From a virus: a stretch of 36,000 nt of DNA. The notes beneath the pieces were generated by a model that was not told the origin of the DNA, searched no databases, and was given only the letters and a program-made list of their open reading frames with translations. Made by a program: the position numbers and the translations under genes. Positions 3,320 through 32,226 of this stretch are shown here, one piece after another; within the stretch, counting starts at the first letter, position 1, and each line of letters starts with the position of its first letter. The DNA lies in the IMG/VR virus record IMGVR_UViG_3300021960_008364, positions 1 through 36,000 of that record; one strand, written 5' to 3'.

Positions 3320-4297
3320 TTAGAATGATGAGAATGCTGTTCTCACCCATGTGTTAGCTGTATGGCAGTAGTATAGATAATATGTTCCGCTATCTTCGCC
3401 AAACCTAATTTCACCTACTTCGCCGGTATCTGTAGAGCTTGCTGGTGCCGCGGCAGTAAAAAATTTCATTGTACCATCTTCTGTATAGATAGTAAAATAG
3501 TTAGGATTGCCAACAGTACCTGAGCCGCCGGATTGTCCAACTTGCCCTCTAGCCATTGATCCAAAACCAAATCGTCCTAGACGTCCGTTGATTTCACCGT
3601 TGCCTGCTCCTGTGTTTACGCAGAAAATACTGCCTGTATTAACGTTAACGTTCCCTGTAGTAAGAGTAACATTACCTGTAGCAACCGTAACTCCAGTATC
3701 AGCATTAATACTATCAACAGTTAGTAAACCACCAATGGTTGCAGAAGTATTAACAGCTAGAGTGGAGTTGCTGATTATACTATCAGCAATTAATTGGTTT
3801 GTTAATGTTATATCTGTTGCGTTTATAGCATTTGTAATTGTAGCACTATCGCCTACGATAGCACCAGAGGCAGTTACAGTAGTTCCATTTACATTTCCAG
3901 TTAGATCGCCTGTAACATTACCTGTAACATTACCTGTAACATTACCTGTAACGTCGCCAGTTAGATCTCCTGTAATTGTAGTTGCTGTTACAGTAGGTGA
4001 TGTAATCGATGATGCAAAGTTAGCGGAGCCGCCAACACCAATACCACCAACAATAGTTAACGCACCTGTTGAACTGTTAGTGCTGTTCGTGCCGTCTGTA
4101 ATAGTAGTTGCATTACTGATTGTACCACCGGTAAACACTGCATTAATATTAGCAACTTCTTGCGTGATTAACGTAGGTACAAGTGTAGTTTCGATTGTGT
4201 TAAAATTATCACGAACCTTTGAGAACGCATCACGAATGCTGTCCCCTGTGCCATCATTTGGCGAGGCTCCAATGTTGATTGTGTTTAATGTAGGCAT
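3320..4297 (-). CDS. Tail-fibre-like protein with short G-N-V-T repeats
   Basis: 325 residues. The N-terminus (NDGTGDSIRDAF, then KVRDNFNTIE) is the attachment-type motif found at the start of many marine phage fibre proteins, and the giant fibre at 7174-11823 has a related one (AGSGDSLKVAFDKINANF). Residues ~108-140 are a run of GDLTGDVTGNVTGN-type repeats, probably a trimeric beta-helical shaft. The C-terminus (GEIRFGEDSGTYYLYYCHTANTWVRTAF) is a small aromatic-rich tip. A late box lies 27 bp upstream. The role is likely receptor binding or spacing; which virion structure carries it cannot be told from sequence. Confidence 0.85.
   Translation of the reverse strand: MPTLNTINIGASPNDGTGDSIRDAFSKVRDNFNTIETTLVPTLITQEVANINAVFTGGTISNATTITDGTNSTNSSTGALTIVGGIGVGGSANFASSITSPTVTATTITGDLTGDVTGNVTGNVTGNVTGDLTGNVNGTTVTASGAIVGDSATITNAINATDITLTNQLIADSIISNSTLAVNTSATIGGLLTVDSINADTGVTVATGNVTLTTGNVNVNTGSIFCVNTGAGNGEINGRLGRFGFGSMARGQVGQSGGSGTVGNPNYFTIYTEDGTMKFFTAAAPASSTDTGEVGEIRFGEDSGTYYLYYCHTANTWVRTAFSSF
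3909..3956. repeat. 12-bp tandem repeat in fibre gene
   Basis: Three perfect copies of CCTGTAACATTA and a fourth diverged copy encode the G-N-V-T run of the fibre on the minus strand. Confidence 0.9.
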
Positions 4298-4343: not shown

Positions 4344-5975
4344 TTAGCTTGCAGAGAATGGTGTGTTGTTTCTATAAGGGGTCCACAAAAACTTGTTTTT
4401 AGCACCTTGTAATGCACGAGTTTCTATGTAATCTGTACTGGCTGTACCAGTTGTAGTATCGTGTATGTAATCTTCTCCGCTGGCTTTTTGATTAAGCCAA
4501 TTTAATGCATCAGTTTGATTAAGGTCTGTTCGATTTTGTGCTAAAGTAGCTAGTACGCCTGCTACTTGCGGCGAAGCCATACTTGTACCAGACAACTTTT
4601 TTGTAAATTTTGTGTTATCTCTATCATCTACCCAGCGTGTTGTTGATGTGCCTGAGGTAGCTCTAGATCCAGCAATTGAACTATGTATATTTGTACCTGC
4701 GGCAAAAATATCAACTCTTGGGCCTCGTTCACTGCTAGTGGCAATTTGATTTTTTCCTGGATTACTTGGAGCAGGTTCAAAATATGTACTATCAATGTTA
4801 CCTACACTAATAACTCCTGTCGTTGATCCTGGAGTGGATCCTCTGTGATAGTAATCGAGAACGTTACTAGAATTAAACCAGTAGTTGTCGTAGTCATCAC
4901 CGCCGGGTATATCACATTTGTGTGCAAAGTTTCCTGCGGCGCCAACCATAATAATTCCATCAGCAATACAATCTTCAATGTCAGAATCAACACTAGTAAC
5001 TCGTGTTGGATATAAAAACCCGCCAAATTCTGCCGAAAATGTAGCTGTTCGCATTCCTTTTGTTTGGTCTGCGCTAGTACCTGTCCAATTGGCTCCTCTG
5101 TATTGGCCACCTGCAACATCTGCATAAACACCTAGGAAACCCCAACTCATGTTTACTACTGTTGGGTTTGGCACGCCAGTTGAAGCATTGTTGCCTTTTG
5201 AATTATGCCAAGCACGTAGCATAGTTAAACTTGCTGATACACCAAATGCGGCAGTAGCGTCATCGAGTATTTTTAAACTGTACATGTTTGCTTCAGGCGC
5301 CCAACCGTTGCGGTTGCCTCCTGCAATACCTGCTACATGAGTTCCGTGTCCATCTAAATCTCTATGATAATTTACGTTTTGAGTAAAGGTGCCGGTAGTT
5401 CCGCTAATTGTTGGCCAATCAACAGTTTGATATCTTGATGTATTTCCTGTTAAACCCCAAAACTCTGGATGGTTTGGATCAATACCACTGTCGTGAATTA
5501 CAAGGTCGACATGTTTTCCTGTTAATGTCATTGGAACAACATGCGAGGCTATTTCACCTTCGTTTAACCATGCATCAAACTCAAGACCAAGATTAGCAAT
5601 ACCTAAATTAGGATTACCTGAGTCTTGATATGCATGAGCAATCAAACCCCAATTGGCATTGATGTCTGAACTTGTTGCTGATCTACTTCCAAGCAATCCT
5701 AATCCTGACCGACTAGGGTTCCAGTCTGTTCTTTCGGCAAACCCTTGCAAAATAATGCCATTGTCTACTTTTGATCCATAACGCACATCTCTTACACGCT
5801 CATCACTTTTTAAAGTTTCTGCTTGAGCTTTTGTCATTATAAAATCAAAATTACTACGACTGTGTGGTTTTGCATCGTGTAGTACATAACCATTATCTAG
5901 CATTTCGTTAACAAACTGTTCTGCGTCAACACCTTTATTCAGTGTAACAACACATCTGTTTTCTTCGTCAGCCAT
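4344..5975 (-). CDS. Subtilisin-family serine protease (peptidase S8)
   Basis: 543 residues with the full S8 triad: Asp162 in HDSGID, His210 in DGHGTHVAG, Ser465 in GTSMASPQVAG; the oxyanion Asn349 sits in VGAAGN. Residues 1-75 resemble an inhibitor-type propeptide (VVTLNKGVDAEQF...KSDERVRDVRYG). There is no signal peptide, so it is unlikely to be exported by Sec. It is embedded in the fibre block with 10 nt to the upstream fibre gene and shares its transcript. Likely uses are maturation of fibre or adhesin proteins, or a virion-borne protease acting on host surface proteins. The family is near certain; the substrate is unknown. A subtilase inside an adhesin operon is unusual. Confidence 0.93.
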   Translation of the reverse strand: MADEENRCVVTLNKGVDAEQFVNEMLDNGYVLHDAKPHSRSNFDFIMTKAQAETLKSDERVRDVRYGSKVDNGIILQGFAERTDWNPSRSGLGLLGSRSATSSDINANWGLIAHAYQDSGNPNLGIANLGLEFDAWLNEGEIASHVVPMTLTGKHVDLVIHDSGIDPNHPEFWGLTGNTSRYQTVDWPTISGTTGTFTQNVNYHRDLDGHGTHVAGIAGGNRNGWAPEANMYSLKILDDATAAFGVSASLTMLRAWHNSKGNNASTGVPNPTVVNMSWGFLGVYADVAGGQYRGANWTGTSADQTKGMRTATFSAEFGGFLYPTRVTSVDSDIEDCIADGIIMVGAAGNFAHKCDIPGGDDYDNYWFNSSNVLDYYHRGSTPGSTTGVISVGNIDSTYFEPAPSNPGKNQIATSSERGPRVDIFAAGTNIHSSIAGSRATSGTSTTRWVDDRDNTKFTKKLSGTSMASPQVAGVLATLAQNRTDLNQTDALNWLNQKASGEDYIHDTTTGTASTDYIETRALQGAKNKFLWTPYRNNTPFSAS

Positions 5976-5985
5976 TTAATGTTCC

Positions 5986-7158
5986 TTATGCAATATTAAT
6001 TACGCCATTCATTGCACTGTGTACAGTACAATTATAGTGCAGGGTTGCGGGCGCATCCATTGGCACATTAAAAGTAATTGTTCCAGATTGTGTGGCATTA
6101 TTTGTGACGCCATTTGAATACTGGCTACCAGTTCCTGTTGTGTTTGTTGTATTAATACTGAATGGATGACCTACTGCATTTACAACAAAATGATATGTAA
6201 ATCCTTTGTATAAAGTTAATGTAGGGTTAGTGGTTGTTTGATAAAAACCATCGCCAGTAAATGAGTATGATGTTGAACCACTATTAACAATATTAAAGGT
6301 TATTGCTACTGCATTATCAACATAGTTCTTGGTAGCGGCATCTTGTGCATTGTTAGGATCTGTAACATTAATAATATTACTACTGCTGGCATTGATATCA
6401 CCTGTGGCATTGAGTATAATGTCACTACCACTGGTTAAATTAGCAAAACCAAGACCGCCTGATCCTCCGTTAATGCTTGTTACAGTTAGTGTATTATTAA
6501 TAGTAACAGCATCGTTAGTTGTAGCACCACGTGCGGTAACTGTTGCTAGTGTATCAGTTTCTGTTATTGTAACTGTTGCTGGCTCCCATACACTGTTTGC
6601 GTTGTCCCAAACAAGTGCTTGTCCATCTGTAGGAGCGACGCTAGATGTATCAACATCACTGAGTGCATCAATGCTGATAGAGTTGAGATCGCTAGCCACA
6701 ACAGTATAGCCAGTTATATAACTACTTAAATCGGGCGGTGTATAACTAAATGCACCTGTTGTATTATTATATACAAGGTTTGCTGAACCGGCGGCATTAA
6801 CAGTAACACTTAGATCTGTAAGCGCAATACCACCACCGCCTGTAACAGTAAGATCACCACTTCCTAGTATTGAACTACCGTTGATTGTTTTAATATTATT
6901 TCCACTAACTAATGTTGCTTGTGCATCGTTGATGCCGTATCCTGCCAGTGTAGTTGGTGTTCCGGTAAGTGAACTAAAAGCACCATCAAAAGAATCTGTG
7001 ATGCCATATCCTGCCAGTGTAGTTGGTTTACCAGTTAAGTCTGCAAACGCTACAGTTGAGTTTTGTGCGGACCATGATGATCCGTTCCAGAGATATGTAA
7101 TTCCACCTAATGTAGAAGTATCGTTTAGTGTTGGACTGTCTGGAAAGTTAAATGCCAT
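5986..7158 (-). CDS. Tail-fibre-like protein with C-terminal cupredoxin-like domain
   Basis: 390 residues. The N-terminal part is typical fibre: repeated KPTTLAGYGITD motifs, SDVDTSSVAPTDGQALVWDNANSVW (shared with the giant fibre) and a DAATKNYVDNAV segment. The last ~85 residues differ: a beta-rich domain with GHPFSI (His331) and YNCTVHSAMNG (Cys377, His380, Met383). The C-x2-H-x2-M spacing equals that of amicyanin-type blue-copper sites, and a His about 46 residues upstream fits the fourth ligand. Copper binding is inferred from these ligands; the domain could also serve only as a stable fibre tip. Located between the giant fibre and the S8 protease on one transcript. Confidence 0.85.
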   Translation of the reverse strand: MAFNFPDSPTLNDTSTLGGITYLWNGSSWSAQNSTVAFADLTGKPTTLAGYGITDSFDGAFSSLTGTPTTLAGYGINDAQATLVSGNNIKTINGSSILGSGDLTVTGGGGIALTDLSVTVNAAGSANLVYNNTTGAFSYTPPDLSSYITGYTVVASDLNSISIDALSDVDTSSVAPTDGQALVWDNANSVWEPATVTITETDTLATVTARGATTNDAVTINNTLTVTSINGGSGGLGFANLTSGSDIILNATGDINASSSNIINVTDPNNAQDAATKNYVDNAVAITFNIVNSGSTSYSFTGDGFYQTTTNPTLTLYKGFTYHFVVNAVGHPFSINTTNTTGTGSQYSNGVTNNATQSGTITFNVPMDAPATLHYNCTVHSAMNGVINIA

Positions 7159-7173
7159 TGATATCTGCTCCTA

Positions 7174-10100
7174 TTATGCCGCTACTGATCCGCCGTTTAG
7201 ACACCAACCAGTTCCATCCCAAACACAACTAAATGCGCCTGCAAAAACGCCGCCAATTGTGTCTAATCTCCAAGCATGTGCTGTTCTTAATTCTGTTGCG
7301 CCGTTACCTAGTGTTACTTTTGCGTTTGACACTATAATATCACTATATGTTGATGTAGTCACACCTGATTTATAAAACCAAAGTTCTTGTCCTACATAAG
7401 TGCCATTTCCTAGGGTATAGTCTACACCGCTTGTGATAAAGTGATTGCGTTTTGTAATATCAATAGCGCCGGTGATATTATTGGTTTCGTGTGAACTGGT
7501 TGAAATAGTCGAACTATTAAATCTTAGTTCGTCGCCGCTCCTACTAATTGGATATTCAATTGGATTTTGTGGATCGCTATCGTCAACAAACTTAATACTA
7601 TTATCACTTACATATAAGTCACGGATTTTAAATTCAGCACTACCAATATCATATGTGTCATTGGTATCTGGAATAATGTGTGTGCTTAGGTTACCGTTTA
7701 AGTAAGTTGCTACATTGCTGTCGCCATAACTGGTGCCGCCTACGCCACCTGGGCTTGCATCAACCCATTGACTGCTAGTACCATCATTGTAGTAAACCTT
7801 AAGTCTACCTGCATCGCTTTCCCACCATAGATCGCCTACAGATGGTGAGGTTGGTGCGGTATCACTAATAGTTACATTGGCTCCGCCGCCACCGCTACTA
7901 ATGTTTCCTGGTACCCATTTACCATTTGGATTATCCCAAATCAAACCTTGGCCATTTGTTGGTGGAGCTGATGTTGTGTCTACATCACTAAGGGCATTAA
8001 TACTAATAGTATTCAAATTACTAGCTGTTACTGATGTTAAGTAACTGCTGAGGTCGGGTGGGGTATATGTAAACTCGCCTGTGATATTATTATATGAAAG
8101 TCCACCGCTGGCATTTGCTACTGCATCAGGCCCAACACTTAGGTCTCCTAGTGCGATAAAATTAGTAATACTTGCGGTTGTTGCATAACCAGTTAGATCT
8201 GGTGGAGTGTAACTAAACACCCCGGTTACGTTATTGTATGTTAATGCGGCTGTTCCAGCTGGCGCTGTTTGTACACTTAGATCTGTTAGTCCAATGTTTC
8301 CGCTTTGTGCTACCCAAGCATAGTCTGTGCCTGTCCAACTTAGTACTTCGTTGTTACCCGCTGTACCTGTGTTTAGATGTGTATCAACATCACTGTTAGC
8401 GTAGTGTGCTAAATCGCTGATTTGACTTTCAGTAATAGTTAATGCCGCTTGGTGTTGTGTAACACTACTTTCAGTGATGTTTACATCTGGAACATTTGCC
8501 CAGGTAACTGCACTTGTTAGATCATTTGTTTCTGTAAAGCTAGTTAAGAAACCAGTTAAATCTGGCGGAGTATATGTAAACACACCATTGGCATCATTGT
8601 ATGTTAGTGTTCCTGTTCCTGCGGCCACAGCCTGTGTAACACTGAATGAATCCAGTGTAGCTGATGCAGGTGGGGTAAATGTAAACACACCTGTTGTATT
8701 ATCGTATGCTAAACTGCCTGAGCCGCTAGCGGCAATAGTAATTGCGCTGATGTCAGTGAGTGCGATACCACTGCCTGCGCCACCACTTGCTGTGCCCCAA
8801 CTTAGTGTGCCGGCACCGTTTGTACGTAAAAACTGTCCAGCGGCACCATCTGCCGGAGGCAATTCCCAAACAGTGTTTACGCTGTCTACGTTAACAGGTG
8901 CTTTGAACCCAATATAATTAGATCCATCGCCATCATAAAAACGTAATTCACTTGGATGAGTAAGTTCTACATGATCGCTAATTTGTAATGTTCTATCACT
9001 TGCAATGTGTAAGATTGCTGTTGATGAATTTGCGGCATCTTTGTCCATGGTAATCCATGGAGTGCTCATGCTAGTTTTGTAAATACCAAAATGTGATCGA
9101 GCATCAACGCCTGGGTTACTTCCTCTAGTAGAATCACCAGCAGACCAATTCCATGTTATTAATGCTTCGTCTCCTAGTTCAGTTGCTCCGCTATTAATAG
9201 TTTGTGTAACATCACCATAAGCAATAGCAATAGAACCGGTATTTGTGATATCTGCTTGATTACCAACATGTAACCAAACACCTGGGTTGTTGTTATTAAT
9301 ACCTGTAAAGTCACTGAGTACAATCTCGCCTGAGCCGTTTGCGTTGATAGTAATACCACCGTCTTGATTATCTACGCCAAGTGTGTTATTTGTAAATGTA
9401 AAGTTACCAACGGTGTTTGTAGATTCTACATCACCGGGTATCCACACACTGTTTGCATTATCCCAAACCAATGCCTGTCCGTCTGTAACTCCTGTGGTGT
9501 CTACATCACTTAACGCTGTAATGCTTGCCGCGGCAATTCTTGCATCTGCACGAACATCTGTGTAATATAAGTTTGTACCTTCTGCTAAATCTGTTGTTGT
9601 TTTATTTGCTAGACTTAGGTTAGCACCTACTTGTAGTGCAATACGTGCATCTGCTCTTGCATCTGTATAATATAAATTTGTACCTTCTGCAACATCTGTT
9701 GTTGACTTAGCGGCTAATCTAGTATCAAATCTTGTATCAGTGTAATATAAATTTGTACCTTCTGCAACATCTGTTGTGGACTTTGTTGCTAGGCGTGTGT
9801 CAAAATCTACGTTTGCTCTTGTTGTGGTATAGTATAGGTTACCGTTCTCAGCAATGTCGCCAGTGTCTAGTACAACAGCGCCTGTAGCACCATTGACGCT
9901 GGTTACGGCTTGTGCGGTTGCTGTAAAGCTGATGACACCTGTGTTTGCATCATATGCTAAATCGCCGCCAGCACTGATTGCGGCTCTCGCTCTAGCATCT
10001 GTATAGTATTTGTTTGTGCCTTCTGCAAGATCGTCTGTGTTATGATTGCTAATATCGCTTACTGTACCAGTTACATTACCAACTACTGCACCTGTGTGGG

Positions 10101-11823
10101 TACCTGCGGTATCACCAGTTACATTTCCTGTTACATTTCCTGTAACATTGCCGGTTAGTGTACCGGTAAATCCGCTGGCTGTGGATACACCTTTATTGAA
10201 TTCCCAACGATCTGTTCCGCTTGCGTATGCTATTTGTGCGTCTGCGCCAGCAACGTGTAGGCCTGAACCGTTTGCACTGGCAGCATCTTGTGCGCCTTCT
10301 GCAACCGTAATCATTTTGTCAGCAACAGCAAGTGTGGTGCTGTTTACTGTGGTTGTTGTTCCATTAACTGTTAGGTCACCGCTGATAGTTAGATTATTAA
10401 ATGTTCCGTCTGCGGTTGTATCTAGTCCAATAACACCCGAAGTGCTGTTGTAGGTTACACCTGTGCCTGCGCTAAGTGCCTGTCTTGCTCTAGCATCAGT
10501 GTAGTATAAATTGGCGCCTTCAGTTAGATCAGCTGTTGTCTTGGTTGCTAATCGTGTATCAAAATCTGCGTTTGCTCTTGTTGTGGTATAGTATAAGTTT
10601 GTACCTTCTGCAAGATCTGTTGTTGTCTTGTTTGCAAGGCTTAGGTTTGTGCCTGTAGCGGCGGCAACTCTAGCATCAGCTCTTGCGTCTGTGTAGTATA
10701 AGTTTGTTGATCCTTCAGCAAGTGCGTCTGTGTTGTGATTGCTAATATCGCTTACTTGACCAGTTACGTTACCAGTTACATTACCAGTTACATTACCAGT
10801 TACATCTCCAAGTAGATCACCTGTTACATTACCAGAAACATTACCAACTACTGCACCTGTGTGGGTACCTGTGGTATCACCAGTTACGTTACCAGTTACG
10901 TTACCAGTTACGTTACCAGTTACGTTGCCGGTATGTGTGCCTGTGGTATCACCTGTTAGTGGACCAGTGATAGCAGTAAATACGCCAGTGCTTGGAGTAT
11001 TAGCACCTATAGCTGTACCGTCAATAGCACCGCCGTTAATGTCAACAGTTGTGAATGTTGATGTGCCACCTGAAGTAACATTACCTAATACATTACCTTG
11101 AAGTGTTCCAACAAGATCAAACGCGGCATTTTGTACAGTTGCTCCATTTAGATTTAATGTACCACTAAATGTGCTTGTTCCAGCAGAAGTAATGTTTCCA
11201 ACAACATCGCCGTTGTGGATACCCGTGGTATTACCAGTTAGGTCTCCAGTTACATTACCTGTTAGGTTACCAGTTACATTACCTGTTAGGTTACCAGTTA
11301 CATTGCCAGTTAGATCTCCAACAAAACCAACGGTGGCTGTGATTGTTCCACCGCTAAGGTTGCCACTGAGACTACCATTTATACTGGAAATTTGATTTTG
11401 TAAATTTGCAAATTCGTTATTGTGTTTTGTTTCTAGTGCAGAGATTTGTCCAATTATTGTACCAGCAAAATTAGCATCATCTTGTATTGCCGACGCGATT
11501 TCATTTAGTGTATCTAGTGCGGCTGGAGCACCATCAATCAAACTGTTTAGTGCATCTGCTACTTTGGTGTCAACTTCTGCCTCAGTTACTGCATTAACAC
11601 TTGCAATAAGTCCATCTACATATCCTGTGCTTGCGGCACCAGAAATATCATTTACTGCTAAATCAATCGCCCCTGTTCGTCCTGCTACACTTGCTACTGG
11701 CGCAGAACTGACGACGACAAATTCACCGTTTTCTATTTGTGTAAAGTTAGCATTGATTTTGTCAAATGCTACTTTTAATGAGTCGCCGCTACCGGCCGCT
11801 GTACTAACTGATTCAAAAGGCAT
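7174..11823 (-). CDS. Giant repeat-rich tail fibre (1549 aa)
   Basis: The N-terminus (STAAGSGDSLKVAFDKINANFTQIENGEF) resembles the attachment motif of the 325-aa fibre. A predicted helical segment (~70-145) is followed by long blocks of TGNVTGNVTGD repeats, and then several copies of a module reading AEGTNLYYTDARADARI (or YTTTRANADFDTRL), common in phage fibre shafts. Later blocks repeat LTDLSV...YNNTTGVFSYTPPDL and ALSDVDTTG...QALVWDNANSVW. The tip ends AGAFSCVWDGTGWCLNGGSVAA. Low-complexity shaft with a distinct tip fits a long host-recognition fibre. The gene heads a minus-strand late block, 15 nt before the next fibre gene. A degenerate late box lies 35 bp upstream. Confidence 0.9.
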   Translation of the reverse strand: MPFESVSTAAGSGDSLKVAFDKINANFTQIENGEFVVVSSAPVASVAGRTGAIDLAVNDISGAASTGYVDGLIASVNAVTEAEVDTKVADALNSLIDGAPAALDTLNEIASAIQDDANFAGTIIGQISALETKHNNEFANLQNQISSINGSLSGNLSGGTITATVGFVGDLTGNVTGNLTGNVTGNLTGNVTGDLTGNTTGIHNGDVVGNITSAGTSTFSGTLNLNGATVQNAAFDLVGTLQGNVLGNVTSGGTSTFTTVDINGGAIDGTAIGANTPSTGVFTAITGPLTGDTTGTHTGNVTGNVTGNVTGNVTGDTTGTHTGAVVGNVSGNVTGDLLGDVTGNVTGNVTGNVTGQVSDISNHNTDALAEGSTNLYYTDARADARVAAATGTNLSLANKTTTDLAEGTNLYYTTTRANADFDTRLATKTTADLTEGANLYYTDARARQALSAGTGVTYNSTSGVIGLDTTADGTFNNLTISGDLTVNGTTTTVNSTTLAVADKMITVAEGAQDAASANGSGLHVAGADAQIAYASGTDRWEFNKGVSTASGFTGTLTGNVTGNVTGNVTGDTAGTHTGAVVGNVTGTVSDISNHNTDDLAEGTNKYYTDARARAAISAGGDLAYDANTGVISFTATAQAVTSVNGATGAVVLDTGDIAENGNLYYTTTRANVDFDTRLATKSTTDVAEGTNLYYTDTRFDTRLAAKSTTDVAEGTNLYYTDARADARIALQVGANLSLANKTTTDLAEGTNLYYTDVRADARIAAASITALSDVDTTGVTDGQALVWDNANSVWIPGDVESTNTVGNFTFTNNTLGVDNQDGGITINANGSGEIVLSDFTGINNNNPGVWLHVGNQADITNTGSIAIAYGDVTQTINSGATELGDEALITWNWSAGDSTRGSNPGVDARSHFGIYKTSMSTPWITMDKDAANSSTAILHIASDRTLQISDHVELTHPSELRFYDGDGSNYIGFKAPVNVDSVNTVWELPPADGAAGQFLRTNGAGTLSWGTASGGAGSGIALTDISAITIAASGSGSLAYDNTTGVFTFTPPASATLDSFSVTQAVAAGTGTLTYNDANGVFTYTPPDLTGFLTSFTETNDLTSAVTWANVPDVNITESSVTQHQAALTITESQISDLAHYANSDVDTHLNTGTAGNNEVLSWTGTDYAWVAQSGNIGLTDLSVQTAPAGTAALTYNNVTGVFSYTPPDLTGYATTASITNFIALGDLSVGPDAVANASGGLSYNNITGEFTYTPPDLSSYLTSVTASNLNTISINALSDVDTTSAPPTNGQGLIWDNPNGKWVPGNISSGGGGANVTISDTAPTSPSVGDLWWESDAGRLKVYYNDGTSSQWVDASPGGVGGTSYGDSNVATYLNGNLSTHIIPDTNDTYDIGSAEFKIRDLYVSDNSIKFVDDSDPQNPIEYPISRSGDELRFNSSTISTSSHETNNITGAIDITKRNHFITSGVDYTLGNGTYVGQELWFYKSGVTTSTYSDIIVSNAKVTLGNGATELRTAHAWRLDTIGGVFAGAFSCVWDGTGWCLNGGSVAA
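9570..10740. repeat. Imperfect repeats encoding NLYYTDAR modules
   Basis: About eight imperfect copies of a DNA block containing GTACCTTCTGC followed by A/C-ATCTGTTGTTG encode the A-E-G-T-N-L-Y-Y-T modules of the giant fibre. Spacing varies and G-N-V-T blocks interrupt the series. Confidence 0.7.
10759..10806. repeat. 12-bp tandem repeat in giant fibre
   Basis: Four near-identical copies of ACCAGTTACATT encode T-G-N-V repeats on the minus strand. Confidence 0.9.
10879..10926. repeat. 12-bp tandem repeat, four perfect copies
   Basis: Four exact head-to-tail copies of ACCAGTTACGTT. It differs at one base from the unit at 10759, so each array looks internally homogenised. Confidence 0.92.
11246..11293. 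repeat. 24-bp tandem repeat, two perfect copies
   Basis: Two exact copies of a 24-bp unit (a CCAGTTACATTA half followed by a CCTGTTAGGTTA half), followed by a partial third copy. It encodes alternating G-N-V-T and G-N-L-T turns. Confidence 0.88.
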
Positions 11824-27103: not shown

Positions 27104-29275
27104 TTACTTCTTTTTACTTACTGCTACTAATCTTGTATCATAACCGTCTGGTGTTATATCAGCTAGTTCTTTTTTTAATTCTTTGTCTAAATTATCTCTT
27201 TCTTCTTGGCTGTTTGCTTTTCTCATCATTTCTAGATATTCGTCAATTATTTTTTGTCTCAAATTTTCATCCGAGTACACTAGCCCTCTTGGATCGTTTT
27301 CTGGATCATAAGCAAAAAACTTGTTGTTTTCTCTGTCCCAGGCATATACATGAATACCAGGTTGTTTGCTTAACTTTTGCCACAGTATCTCACTTCCTTT
27401 GCTCTGATTATCATCACTTACAATATCATAACCTTTTTTCACAGCATAAGCATATAGCGGAACAGCAAGTCCTTTGCCTTGTATTTCAGGATCAAATTGA
27501 ACACTGCTGGTCCAAAAACCTTGATTTTTAGCCTGAGCAAAAGGAGAATCACGTTGTGTAAGTATTAACTCTCCCAGTGGTGCTTCGTCTTTCTTGATAA
27601 CAAACACATGATCTCCACCATCTGCTTCACTTTCTATAGATTTGTGTATATTATAATCGCCTAGTTTGCCAACCTTTTTTAATAGTTCATCATTATGATT
27701 CCAGTAGCGAACTTTACCCTTTGGAAAACCAGTCATGGATTGAATTTCTTTAATTTTCTTTTTGCCTGCCTTCATATTAGCACACCAATGATACATTTTT
27801 CCACGTTCACCGCTGTACTTTTTAGCTTTGGCTCGAAGATCAGCCACACTTCCTTTACAACTTGCGCCGGCACGTTTAACACGCCCTGGACGACTTTTAC
27901 CTTTTACCTTACCGTCGGCAAAGTTTTCTGCAAGGTTAGCAACCTCATCTGGAACCTTAAATGCCCACACAGTTGCTTGACCGTCTTGTGCCATCATAGC
28001 AGTAAGTCTTGTGTTACCGCCAATTAATTCTTTATAACCGTCGCTGTAAACAGCAACGATAGGCATTTCAATTATGCCTTTTTCAAGTTGTGCTAGAGCA
28101 CGTCTTTGTTTGTTTGGATCTAATGATTTAAAACTATCTGGATCTGCGGCATCTGTATTGTTAATATCTTTAGCACTTTTAATAGTAAATTCTTTACCCT
28201 TCTTGGCAAGTTTAATCCATGCCGCTTTCCCAATCTTTTGAAACTCTGGATAGCGTTCTGCTTCTTCCCATTCACTATTAAAATTTGGTTCTACAAATTT
28301 TTTACCATCAGCAACGGTTTCTTCTACAGGTTCTTGCATATGCTGTTTGATATTTTTAACCGTGCGCTCGAACTTGTGATCCTTGTGCTTAAATCCAACG
28401 CCGCCAGCGGCTTCCCATTTAGCAATGTTTTGTCCAAAGTCGTCAATTAGTATGTTTGGAGTGCCATCTGATTGTGTAGCATATTTTTCTTTATCATGTG
28501 TTATGATAACACGACTTGGGGGGAATACTTTTAGATACTTTTCGATCCATTCTCTTTTGTGAGGTTCTGAATTGGGATCATCGGGCAATGGAGCACTTAG
28601 TATACTATAACTGCCTTTTAGTTTTTTAATAAGTCCTAATAGCTTACCAGCATTTGGAGCAGGAGGAATATTCAACCAAAAATCTTTTGTATCACGTATT
28701 TTTTGCAATGCCGCAGGAATGTCCTTGCTATCAATTTCTCTCCAGTCTTTGCCAACCAGTTTTTTCCAACTGCCAAAAAAGTCTGCAAGCACACCATCCA
28801 TGTCTACAAACACTTGACTAGATTTTGATATGTCACTTAGTGCTTCTTCTAAGGTTTCAGTCTGACGTGGATAACGGATCATTGTTTCTCTAAAGCTAAA
28901 GTCTTTGTTGCGACCTTTGTTTGGTACAAAACCAAAACGCTTGTAGAACTTTTCAAGTCTACCTTTACTTCCACCAAACGCTGTATCAGGTGTTAGCGCA
29001 ATCATCTTTCCTTCGCTGTCTGCGATGTCAACAAGACGTTGCATAACCTGTGTGCCAATACCAAACCCACGCTCTTCTTTAGGCAGTACTATTTTGCTGA
29101 GAATGTAACCTGCTTGTGTATCATACAAGTCTAGGTCTAAACCTGGAAACTCTGCTTCTAAATCTGTAGACACAGATTCGCCGAGCTTGCCCCATAGCTT
29201 AGAAGCCATGTGTTTCTTAAACAACTTGTCTCGGTACTTGCTTCTTTCCGTTAGACTGTATTCACTGAATCTCAC
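27104..29275 (-). CDS. Multidomain fusion: GNAT, HAD nucleotidase-like, ParB-like, second GNAT-like
   Basis: 723 residues. Residues 1-137: GNAT acetyltransferase with the acetyl-CoA loop region EERGFGIGTQVMQRLV and EKFYKRFGF. Residues ~150-310: HAD fold of the 5'(3')-deoxyribonucleotidase kind, DMDGVLADF (Asp158, Asp160), SILSAP, and ILIDDFGQN. Residues ~400-445: ParB/Srx-like segment GGNTRLTAM. Residues ~455-510: a Lys/Arg-rich Cys-containing segment (GASCKGSVADLRAKAKKY). Residues ~550-640: second GNAT-like region (PEIQGKGLAVPLYAYAVKKG). Starts by ATGA overlap with the nuclease gene. A nucleotide- or nucleic-acid-modifying enzyme is possible; no single function can be stated. Confidence 0.82.
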   Translation of the reverse strand: MRFSEYSLTERSKYRDKLFKKHMASKLWGKLGESVSTDLEAEFPGLDLDLYDTQAGYILSKIVLPKEERGFGIGTQVMQRLVDIADSEGKMIALTPDTAFGGSKGRLEKFYKRFGFVPNKGRNKDFSFRETMIRYPRQTETLEEALSDISKSSQVFVDMDGVLADFFGSWKKLVGKDWREIDSKDIPAALQKIRDTKDFWLNIPPAPNAGKLLGLIKKLKGSYSILSAPLPDDPNSEPHKREWIEKYLKVFPPSRVIITHDKEKYATQSDGTPNILIDDFGQNIAKWEAAGGVGFKHKDHKFERTVKNIKQHMQEPVEETVADGKKFVEPNFNSEWEEAERYPEFQKIGKAAWIKLAKKGKEFTIKSAKDINNTDAADPDSFKSLDPNKQRRALAQLEKGIIEMPIVAVYSDGYKELIGGNTRLTAMMAQDGQATVWAFKVPDEVANLAENFADGKVKGKSRPGRVKRAGASCKGSVADLRAKAKKYSGERGKMYHWCANMKAGKKKIKEIQSMTGFPKGKVRYWNHNDELLKKVGKLGDYNIHKSIESEADGGDHVFVIKKDEAPLGELILTQRDSPFAQAKNQGFWTSSVQFDPEIQGKGLAVPLYAYAVKKGYDIVSDDNQSKGSEILWQKLSKQPGIHVYAWDRENNKFFAYDPENDPRGLVYSDENLRQKIIDEYLEMMRKANSQEERDNLDKELKKELADITPDGYDTRLVAVSKKK

Positions 29276-30355: not shown

Positions 30356-30520
30356 TTATAGTTCTTCTGCAATACCTAAAAATTCAGCCAAAGCAAAGAA
30401 CAGTGCGAGTAATACAACCGAACCTGTATATGCCCCAACTAAGCAACCTACTAAACGCAAGCCACTTTTAACAAGACTGATATAAAAATGTTTACGGCTT
30501 GGATCTACTGGTTCAGTCAT
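30356..30520 (-). CDS. Small membrane protein (54 aa)
   Basis: ATG 30520 overlaps the ClpP stop (ATGA), and its stop is one base from the MCD-like ATG. Begins MTEPVDPSRKHFYISLVKSG; hydrophobic span ~22-48 (LVGCLVGAYTGSVVLLALFFAL), ending AEEL. Tight coupling on both sides supports it being real. Function unknown; it may tether neighbours to the membrane. Confidence 0.75.
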   Translation of the reverse strand: MTEPVDPSRKHFYISLVKSGLRLVGCLVGAYTGSVVLLALFFALAEFLGIAEEL

Positions 30521-31107
30521 CGTTTTGTAATCACTTCGTCTGCGAGGCCATAGTCAACTGATGCTTGGGCATCCATAAAGTTATCACGTTCCGTGTCACG
30601 AGCAATCTCTTCAAATGTTTTGCCCTTGCTGTTGTGGTTAACATAGATCTGTGTTAGATAACGCTTCATCTCAATGATCTCTTTGACTTGGATTTCCATG
30701 TCTGTGGCTTGACCTCTAGCACCACCACTAGGCTGGTGAATCATGTGACGAGCATGTGGGAGAATAAAACGCTTGCCAGCGGCACCGGAACTTGCCAGCA
30801 AACTGCCCATTGAACAGGCTTGCCCCATTACAACGGTACGTATATCACATTTAATATACTGCATCACATCATAGATAGCCATGCCTGCTGTAACACTGCC
30901 ACCTGGACTATTGATGTAAAACAAAATTTCTGCGTCTGGGTCATCTGCTTCTAAAAACAAAAACTGTCCAACAAGTAGACTAGCAGTGTGTTCAGTAACT
31001 TCTGTATCTAGTAGTACAATTCTATCTTTGAGTAGGCGACTATATAGGTCGTAGCTACGTTCTCCATCACTGGTGCGTTCTAAAACAACAGGTACATAAT
31101 TAGGCAT
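30517..31107 (-). CDS. clpP: ClpP-type ATP-dependent protease subunit
   Basis: 196 residues, the usual ClpP size. Catalytic residues: Ser99 in GQACSMGSLL, His124 in HMIHQPSGG, Asp171 in ARDTERDNF. The N-terminal loop and SPGGSVTAGMAIYD are also conserved. ClpP forms a double heptamer that degrades proteins fed by ClpX or ClpA; no Clp ATPase is seen here, so it would use host unfoldases or mix with host subunits. It overlaps the radical SAM gene by 8 nt. ClpP-like genes occur in some large or marine phages. Complete and likely active. Confidence 0.95.
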   Translation of the reverse strand: MPNYVPVVLERTSDGERSYDLYSRLLKDRIVLLDTEVTEHTASLLVGQFLFLEADDPDAEILFYINSPGGSVTAGMAIYDVMQYIKCDIRTVVMGQACSMGSLLASSGAAGKRFILPHARHMIHQPSGGARGQATDMEIQVKEIIEMKRYLTQIYVNHNSKGKTFEEIARDTERDNFMDAQASVDYGLADEVITKR

Positions 31108-32158
31108 CTTTATAACTCTCCGGTATTAATTCCCAAAGCTCGGGAAAGGTTTTTTGAAATGATTCGCCACGACTCTGGTCTAGCATTTGAACATGTTTCA
31201 TAAACATATTAAAAGCGGTTCCAGGTAAAGTATCTAAACTTATATACTTCTTAACTTCATCAGGCAAACAATTTATATTTAGGTAGTCGGGATTAGTAAC
31301 TAGTCCAACATATGGATGCGGAAGATTCATTTCATCGCACCATAGTTTAAAATCGTCTAAATCTAATGCATTATACACACTAATTGTATGACTTACACTT
31401 AACTTGATGTTATCTGTGCGATCTCTAAGCTCAATGAATCGTTGAATATTTTCTTTTACACCTTTCCATTTTGCAGGCCAACGAATATATTCAAACTTTT
31501 TTTCTACGCCGTCTAGACTTAATTGAATGTCTACTTCAGGAAAATGTTGCCATGCTTCTACTAATTTTGCAGGCCAAGTAGTGCAGTTTGTTGTATAATG
31601 TAGTGTGGGCAATTCAGCTCTTGTATCTATTAGGTGATCAAGAAAGTTTTGGTGTTCTGGTATATTATGAAGGAAAGGTTCTCCTCCAGGGATATCAATG
31701 TGAATTGCTGTTTCGCCGCAGTGTTTGAGATCTTGCATAAACTTAGCATCTTTATAAAATCTTTGATGTTTAAAATATGCTAAATCAAGTTTACGTGCTT
31801 CTTGAGCCCACCGACTACTACTATAACTTGAGCATGTACGACATGCAAGATTACAGGTATTTCCAAAAGCAACACTGAGTATTTTAATTGAATCCAAGTT
31901 GGGTTTTTGTTTTTTGAAATGATATTCCCAATCCATTTCTCGTTTGCTAGGTAACCCAAGCTCTTCATCACGCCAACAACGAGCACAACCCACTGGTTGC
32001 TCTCCTCTTTCAAATGCCTGACGTAATTCTTTTAATTCTGGACTATCCCAATAATCATCAAAGTTATTCGCAATAGAATTTTGATATTTACAACACGGTT
32101 TAAATTTTCCTTGAGGACTAATGTCAAGACCTACCCATGGATGATAACACATTTTCAT
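31100..32158 (-). CDS. Radical SAM enzyme with N-terminal twitch-like cysteine domain
   Basis: 352 residues from ATG 32158 (MKMCYHPWVGLDIS). The core cluster motif is CNLACRTC (Cys102, Cys106, Cys109), followed by DIPGGEPFLH (GGE motif) and LSLDGVEKKFEYIRW. Before the core come five cysteines (Cys4, Cys22, Cys23, Cys58, Cys61), fitting an auxiliary Fe-S (twitch/SPASM-like) cluster, unusual in that it precedes the core. Substrate unknown; peptide modification or tRNA/lipid maturation are possible. The window's A-type Fe-S carrier could serve it. No Shine-Dalgarno; a promoter box ends 5 nt before the ATG. First gene of the ClpP/MCD unit. Confidence 0.9.
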   Translation of the reverse strand: MKMCYHPWVGLDISPQGKFKPCCKYQNSIANNFDDYWDSPELKELRQAFERGEQPVGCARCWRDEELGLPSKREMDWEYHFKKQKPNLDSIKILSVAFGNTCNLACRTCSSYSSSRWAQEARKLDLAYFKHQRFYKDAKFMQDLKHCGETAIHIDIPGGEPFLHNIPEHQNFLDHLIDTRAELPTLHYTTNCTTWPAKLVEAWQHFPEVDIQLSLDGVEKKFEYIRWPAKWKGVKENIQRFIELRDRTDNIKLSVSHTISVYNALDLDDFKLWCDEMNLPHPYVGLVTNPDYLNINCLPDEVKKYISLDTLPGTAFNMFMKHVQMLDQSRGESFQKTFPELWELIPESYKDA

Positions 32159-32163
32159 ATGTA

Positions 32164-32190
32164 TATTTAAACACTCAATAGTGAGGTCAA
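32164..32190 (-). promoter_or_regulatory. Paired conserved promoter element (copy 2)
   Basis: Minus strand TTGACC (32185-32190), 15-bp spacer with inverted repeat CACT...AGTG, box TTTAAATA (32164-32171), 5 nt before ATG 32158. Same layout as 22293-22319. Confidence 0.6.
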
Positions 32191-32192
32191 AG

Positions 32193-32226
32193 AAAAACGG
32201 CGTCATGGTAAGGTAACGCCGTTTTT
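32193..32226. terminator. Bidirectional terminator
   Basis: Stem AAAAACGGCGT / ACGCCGTTTTT with a 12-nt loop, between the LPP20-like gene and the radical SAM promoter. Confidence 0.9.

Follow-up and report, generated by a model that had tools for sequence, protein, structure and literature searches.

The window analysed here is a 36,000-base stretch of marine virus DNA, of which positions 5986-7158 are occupied by a single long open reading frame on the minus strand encoding a protein of 390 amino acids, P0001. The frame opens with an ATG at 7158, immediately preceded by an AGGAG, and closes with a stop codon at 5986-5988, which establishes as genuine the gene put forward in the original prediction and adds its strand, which had not been given. 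P0001 sits in a series of minus-strand fibre-type genes, and the features of the locus are the following.

3320-4297, minus strand: fibre-like protein, beyond the subtilase
4344-5975, minus strand: subtilase, peptidase S8 (Pfam E 1.4e-28; phrog_9158)
5986-7158, minus strand: P0001, fibre/gp9-like virion protein of 390 residues (open reading frame and translation; phrog_677 match)
5989-6306, minus strand: cupredoxin domain, residues 285-390, about 105 residues (AlphaFold2 model, Foldseek and VIA-align matches)
6010-6012, minus strand: Met383, predicted axial metal ligand, in the loop between strands 7 and 8 (conservation and AlphaFold2 model)
6019-6021, minus strand: His380, predicted metal ligand, in the loop between strands 7 and 8 (conservation and AlphaFold2 model)
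6028-6030, minus strand: Cys377, predicted metal ligand, where strand 7 ends (conservation and AlphaFold2 model)
6166-6168, minus strand: His331, first predicted metal ligand, just before a strand, in GHPFSI (invariant in 79 of 79 copies; rusticyanin alignment)
6307-6678, minus strand: residues 161-284, common to the gp9-type connector family (LSDVDTSS..GQALVWD..W.PA, NVTDPNNAQDAATKNYVD; phrog_677 match)
6925-7038, minus strand: fibre-type repeats, residues 41-78, LTGKPTTLAGYGITD / LTGTPTTLAGYGIND (seen in the translation)
7174-11823, minus strand: fibre of 1549 amino acids, upstream of P0001

Elsewhere on the minus strand of the window, 27104-29275 encodes a 723-residue protein that combines a DarB-like antirestriction stretch (residues ~31-148) with a 5'-3' deoxyribonucleotidase-like domain (152-315), and a Radical-SAM protein (31100-32206) adjoins a head-maturation-protease-like gene (30517-31107).

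The first half of P0001 contains fibre repeats (LTGKPTTLAGYGITD), and residues 161-389 match phrog_677, annotated as 'baseplate wedge tail fiber protein connector', with an E value of 2.2e-38. The N-terminal domain of T4 gp9/10 (PF07880) was not found in P0001 in a Pfam search at E <= 1; it is present in four relatives (L002, L119, L123 and L124).

The original prediction had assigned the C-terminus of P0001 to a blue-copper-like (cupredoxin) domain and had proposed structure prediction as a check on its Greek-key barrel. The fold does come out as that of a cupredoxin. An AlphaFold2 model of the domain, computed with a 72-row alignment, has a mean pLDDT of 94.4 and eight strands, with His331 preceding a strand, Cys377 ending strand 7 and His380 and Met383 in the loop between strands 7 and 8, as in the cupredoxin topology. 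Cupredoxins head the lists of structural matches from both Foldseek, in which the top solved structures are the cupredoxin domain of the Hyphomicrobium nitrite reductase, AcoP and rusticyanin, and VIA-align, in which 2dv6 is matched with a Z score of 11.1 (1.8 Å over 92 residues, 22% identity) and rusticyanin with a Z score of about 9-10, the best matches spanning 1.8-2.2 Å. Searches of the PDB agree: a single sequence retrieves cupredoxins (plastocyanin, nitrite reductase) at E values of 0.3-0.5 only, while a 13- or 72-member profile retrieves copper nitrite reductases, plastocyanins, amicyanins, rusticyanins, pseudoazurins and auracyanin at E values of 1e-4 to 1, penicillin acylase and one laminarinase being the sole matches outside the cupredoxins.

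The Pfam Copper-bind model (PF00127, cut-off 21.2) gives 12.6 bits for the whole of P0001 and 16.3 / 15.4 for the domain alone, below the cut-off, and is matched by 19 of 72 relatives at E <= 0.1 (best 5e-5). The NCBIfam amicyanin model (TIGR02657) does not match the domain of the window and weakly matches 17 of the 72 relatives (best 1.8e-4); the halocyanin model is matched by 17 and the plastocyanin model by six. Of the 72 copies of alignment A2, 28 match PF25489, the At5g54830-like domain that takes its name from a plant DOMON/cytochrome b561 protein, compared with the 19 that match PF00127, which suggests kinship with this eukaryotic domain. The structural matches in BFVD include several giant-virus 'Beta-sandwich proteins', from Pithovirus and Marseillevirus metagenomic genomes (A0A481Z6J5, A0A481YVH3 and A0A481Z7Q7; 18-27% identity), some of which are nearly stand-alone domains.

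His331, Cys377 (the sole cysteine of P0001), His380 and Met383 are all present, as had been predicted, and both their order and their places in the topology are those of a cupredoxin copper site. The amicyanin-type spacing that had also been proposed for them holds for the C-x2-H-x2-M loop, which is identical, but not for the distance between the first histidine and the cysteine, which is 46 residues here and 39 in amicyanin (His53-Cys92). In HMMER alignments to plastocyanin and amicyanin, His331 is offset by two residues from the first histidine ligand of those proteins. In a profile alignment with rusticyanin, whose letters as used are identical to those of 1CUR, GHPFSI lies opposite GHSFDI, so that His331 coincides with the ligand histidine, just as Cys377 and Met383 coincide with the ligand cysteine and methionine; this register, rather than that of the plastocyanin and amicyanin alignments, is taken to be the correct one for His331.

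The four residues are strongly conserved. Among 23 copies found by similarity in named phages and IMG/VR contigs, H331, C377 and H380 are each retained in 22 and M383 in all 23, and all four are invariant in a set of 79 copies (that of the window and 78 from IMG/VR), where the conservation of C, H and M is partly built in by their presence in the IMG/VR search pattern and that of His331, which lay outside the pattern, is not. Copies derived from tblastn are free of this bias on Cys, His and Met. Over all loci, the complete set occurs in 126 of the 132 distinct copies. Of the six exceptions, most are only partly aligned, including a gp10-like copy that shows H...C-x2-H-x2-M once read out, and another of the six carries a Met-to-Lys replacement (L093). 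Six columns are invariant in alignment A2, in which the mean column identity is ~42%, and the ligands account for four of them; in alignment A1 they account for four of eight. Even the gp10-like neighbours of cyanophage gp9, which are divergent and contain long insertions, retain H...C-x2-H-x2-M. A chance motif is ruled out by this conservation together with the fold, since His331 is invariant in 79 of 79 copies and 71 of the 72 aligned copies contain a single cysteine; the latter count also rules out a disulphide role for that residue.

Only two complete copies lack the site, and in both of them His, Cys and His have been lost jointly. The copy of Synechococcus phage RN05-S (L030/L138) has F/A/V at these positions and retains the methionine, while in the second copy of locus L114 (open reading frame from 3703, residues ~300-400) the first histidine is replaced by Asp, the cysteine by Arg and the remainder is gone. 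This joint loss implies that the four residues form one functional unit; they appear to be under selection as such, in the pattern that a metal site would give, and the two degenerate copies suggest that the module can dispense with the metal in places. Taken further, the same two copies could be read as a sign that the domain binds no metal at all and is a β-sandwich for adhesion or packing that is employed much as Ig-like modules are in tail proteins and that retains the four residues for the sake of its fold. The exact invariance of H, C, H and M against a mean column identity of ~42%, and their loss as a group, are difficult to square with packing, and this explanation is highly improbable. 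Zinc or another soft metal acting as a purely structural clamp is a further candidate, given that zinc is accepted by Cys/His sites and that phage fibres often contain structural metals; nevertheless, the axial methionine and the C-x2-H-x2-M loop are those of type-1 copper and all of the solved relatives found are copper proteins, which makes such a clamp a distinctly unlikely occupant of the site.

The domain is by no means confined to P0001. A tblastn search (E <= 1e-3) located it in 344 of 50,697 phage records, almost all of which are Synechococcus or Prochlorococcus phages, and a scan with a tighter alignment returned mostly phage-like contigs in marine MAGs. The original description of the domain as unusual is thus accurate with respect to textbook phages, but does not apply to marine cyanophages. 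In T4-like marine cyanophages it mostly forms the C-terminal part of gp9, the connector between the baseplate wedge and the tail fibre; it lies near the N-terminus of its protein in the T7-like cyanophages P-GSP1 and P-SCSP2, and is also carried by the proximal fibres of P-SSM2 and by the virion subtilases of S-H9-1 and others. When the gp9 core of S-SSM4 was searched without the domain, 337 records were matched, 308 of them named as Synechococcus, Cyanophage or Prochlorococcus phages, and none of the Aeromonas, Escherichia and other non-marine phages matched by this core was among the tblastn matches of the domain. Judged from record totals and organism names, on which this comparison was made, gp9 seems to have acquired the domain in the marine cyanophage lineage, most members of which carry it. 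A collagen-like protein with a signal-peptide-like start, encoded in a Bacteroidetes MAG (L122, 3026-6049, plus strand), contains the same domain in its middle and is a case of cellular use of the module.

P0001 had been regarded as a receptor-binding fibre with the copper site at its tip. Its second half matches the gp9 connector family, and in its relatives, which include fibres and subtilases, the domain takes up N-terminal, internal and C-terminal positions, ending within ten residues of the C-terminus in 53 of 137 copies and starting within 60 residues of the beginning of the open reading frame in 11. Such varied placement indicates that the domain is not tied to a tip, which is ruled out as its general setting, and that it is a mobile module of virion proteins rather than a peculiarity of this fibre. 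This also bears on the possibility of a copper 'Ferrojan horse', in which the virion site would mimic a copper ligand of the host and dock on an outer-membrane copper-uptake receptor. The tail fibre of T4 is established to bind iron through HxH motifs of gp37, metal has been proposed in the fibres of marine phages (PMC11705849), and the concentration of the domain in phages of Synechococcus and Prochlorococcus would suit such a strategy. On the other hand, most copies lie away from fibre tips, either in connectors of the gp9 type or internally in long proteins, the site is invariant whereas receptor-binding surfaces usually vary, and no receptor is indicated by the present data, so that docking of this kind is unlikely.

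The subtilase gene starts ten bases downstream of that of P0001, and the stretches of its catalytic triad, HDSGID, GHGTHVAG and GTSMASP, look intact. A cupredoxin gene and a subtilase gene also adjoin at loci L002-L010, L067, L080 and L091, and the two are fused in L029, L036, L090 and L114, as well as in a marine MAG contig (L120) in which the cupredoxin interrupts the S8 domain itself; the fused form is what PHROG 9158 seems to represent. A link to a subtilase was found at 29 of 144 loci, a raw count made without a control and including many near-duplicates.

Taken together, the results favour, as the probable explanation, a cupredoxin with an intact set of type-1-copper-type ligands that binds copper, is loaded extracellularly and stiffens or presents a module for adhesion or assembly. 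The fold, the conservation of the ligands and the broad distribution of the module among marine phage virion proteins emerge directly from the computations, the metal-site reading is well supported and the role is put forward more cautiously. The domain is expected to bind copper because its ligand set is of type 1 and its solved relatives are copper proteins. P0001 would be made in the reducing, copper-poor cytosol of the host, probably as an apo-protein, and would take up Cu(I) or Cu(II) after lysis, in debris or seawater, since type-1 sites bind copper very tightly; it is where virions live that points to loading outside the cell. With less assurance, the bound metal may mainly stiffen an exposed β-sandwich at the baseplate and fibre that acts as an adhesive or assembly module, with the edge around His380 as a possible contact point. 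A rigid exposed module of this type is favoured over electron transfer to or from a dedicated redox partner because the same domain recurs in connectors, fibres and proteases as well as in a collagen-like protein that is secreted, this last occurrence being in keeping with a structural or adhesive function outside the cell.

The strict retention of a weak axial methionine, which mere stabilization of the fold would not need, nevertheless leaves room for a redox role. The domain could be a blue-copper centre with redox activity, handing on electrons or removing oxidants such as superoxide at the surface of the virion or cell, and the full type-1 set, methionine included, is indeed that of electron-transfer cupredoxins; yet such proteins are normally free or tethered near their partner, and neither a redox partner nor a second copper site is encoded nearby among the window genes examined, making this function very unlikely. 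A broader proposal can be advanced tentatively: the baseplates and fibres of most marine T4-like cyanophages and many other marine phages may bear genuine type-1 copper centres, from one to several per subunit, so that their virions would be copper proteins. Infection would then depend on the copper, whether for docking, for triggering or as protection, and marine viruses would constitute a reservoir of strongly bound copper in the sea.

Fold and site are both known already, and InterPro-type superfamily matches on these proteins may be present in databases. What is apparently undescribed is their repeated, mobile use in phage tail machines: no account of a phage tail protein bearing a cupredoxin was found in the open-access full texts searched. 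A viral NirK (PMC8115048), considered as a precedent, was discarded as a full enzyme that is unrelated. A module annotated in hundreds of records as just 'hypothetical' or 'tail fibre' thereby gains a name and a predicted structure. Copper in the sea both limits and poisons Synechococcus and Prochlorococcus. Should copper occupy the site, some of the most abundant viruses of the sunlit ocean would have copper proteins as their tail machines, a second metal, held in a very tight and redox-capable site, would join the iron story of phage tails, and marine copper chemistry would be linked to infection.

Among known systems, the best structural match is the N-terminal cupredoxin of the three-domain nitrite reductase of Hyphomicrobium (2dv6, 6tfo, 6tfd), which is likewise fused to a larger protein, but one that is a redox enzyme and has no fibre context. 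The Acidithiobacillus blue-copper proteins rusticyanin and AcoP share the fold, and rusticyanin also shares sequence signatures, its NPTL...GHSFDI corresponding to NPTL...GHPFSI here and its TYYYVCQ to TLYYVCQ in relatives; its loop, however, is C-x4-H-x4-M instead of C-x2-H-x2-M, and both are free periplasmic electron carriers of acidophiles rather than parts of a virion. Amicyanin has the same ligand loop and is, with halocyanin, the NCBIfam model matched by the most members, but differs in its shorter His-Cys interval, in the shifted register of the first histidine noted above and in its methylamine dehydrogenase context, which the module lacks. P0001 resembles T4-type gp9 through its connector region, and cyanophage gp9 itself ends in the domain, whereas PF07880 is undetected in P0001 and the domain is unmatched in the Aeromonas and Escherichia phages that the gp9 core matches. 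A further metal site on a phage tail protein is provided by the HxH iron sites of T4 gp37 and alterophage R22Y (PMC11705849), which differ in fold and in coordinating octahedral iron through pairs of histidines from a trimer, whereas the site described here is a predicted copper site contained within a single cupredoxin domain.
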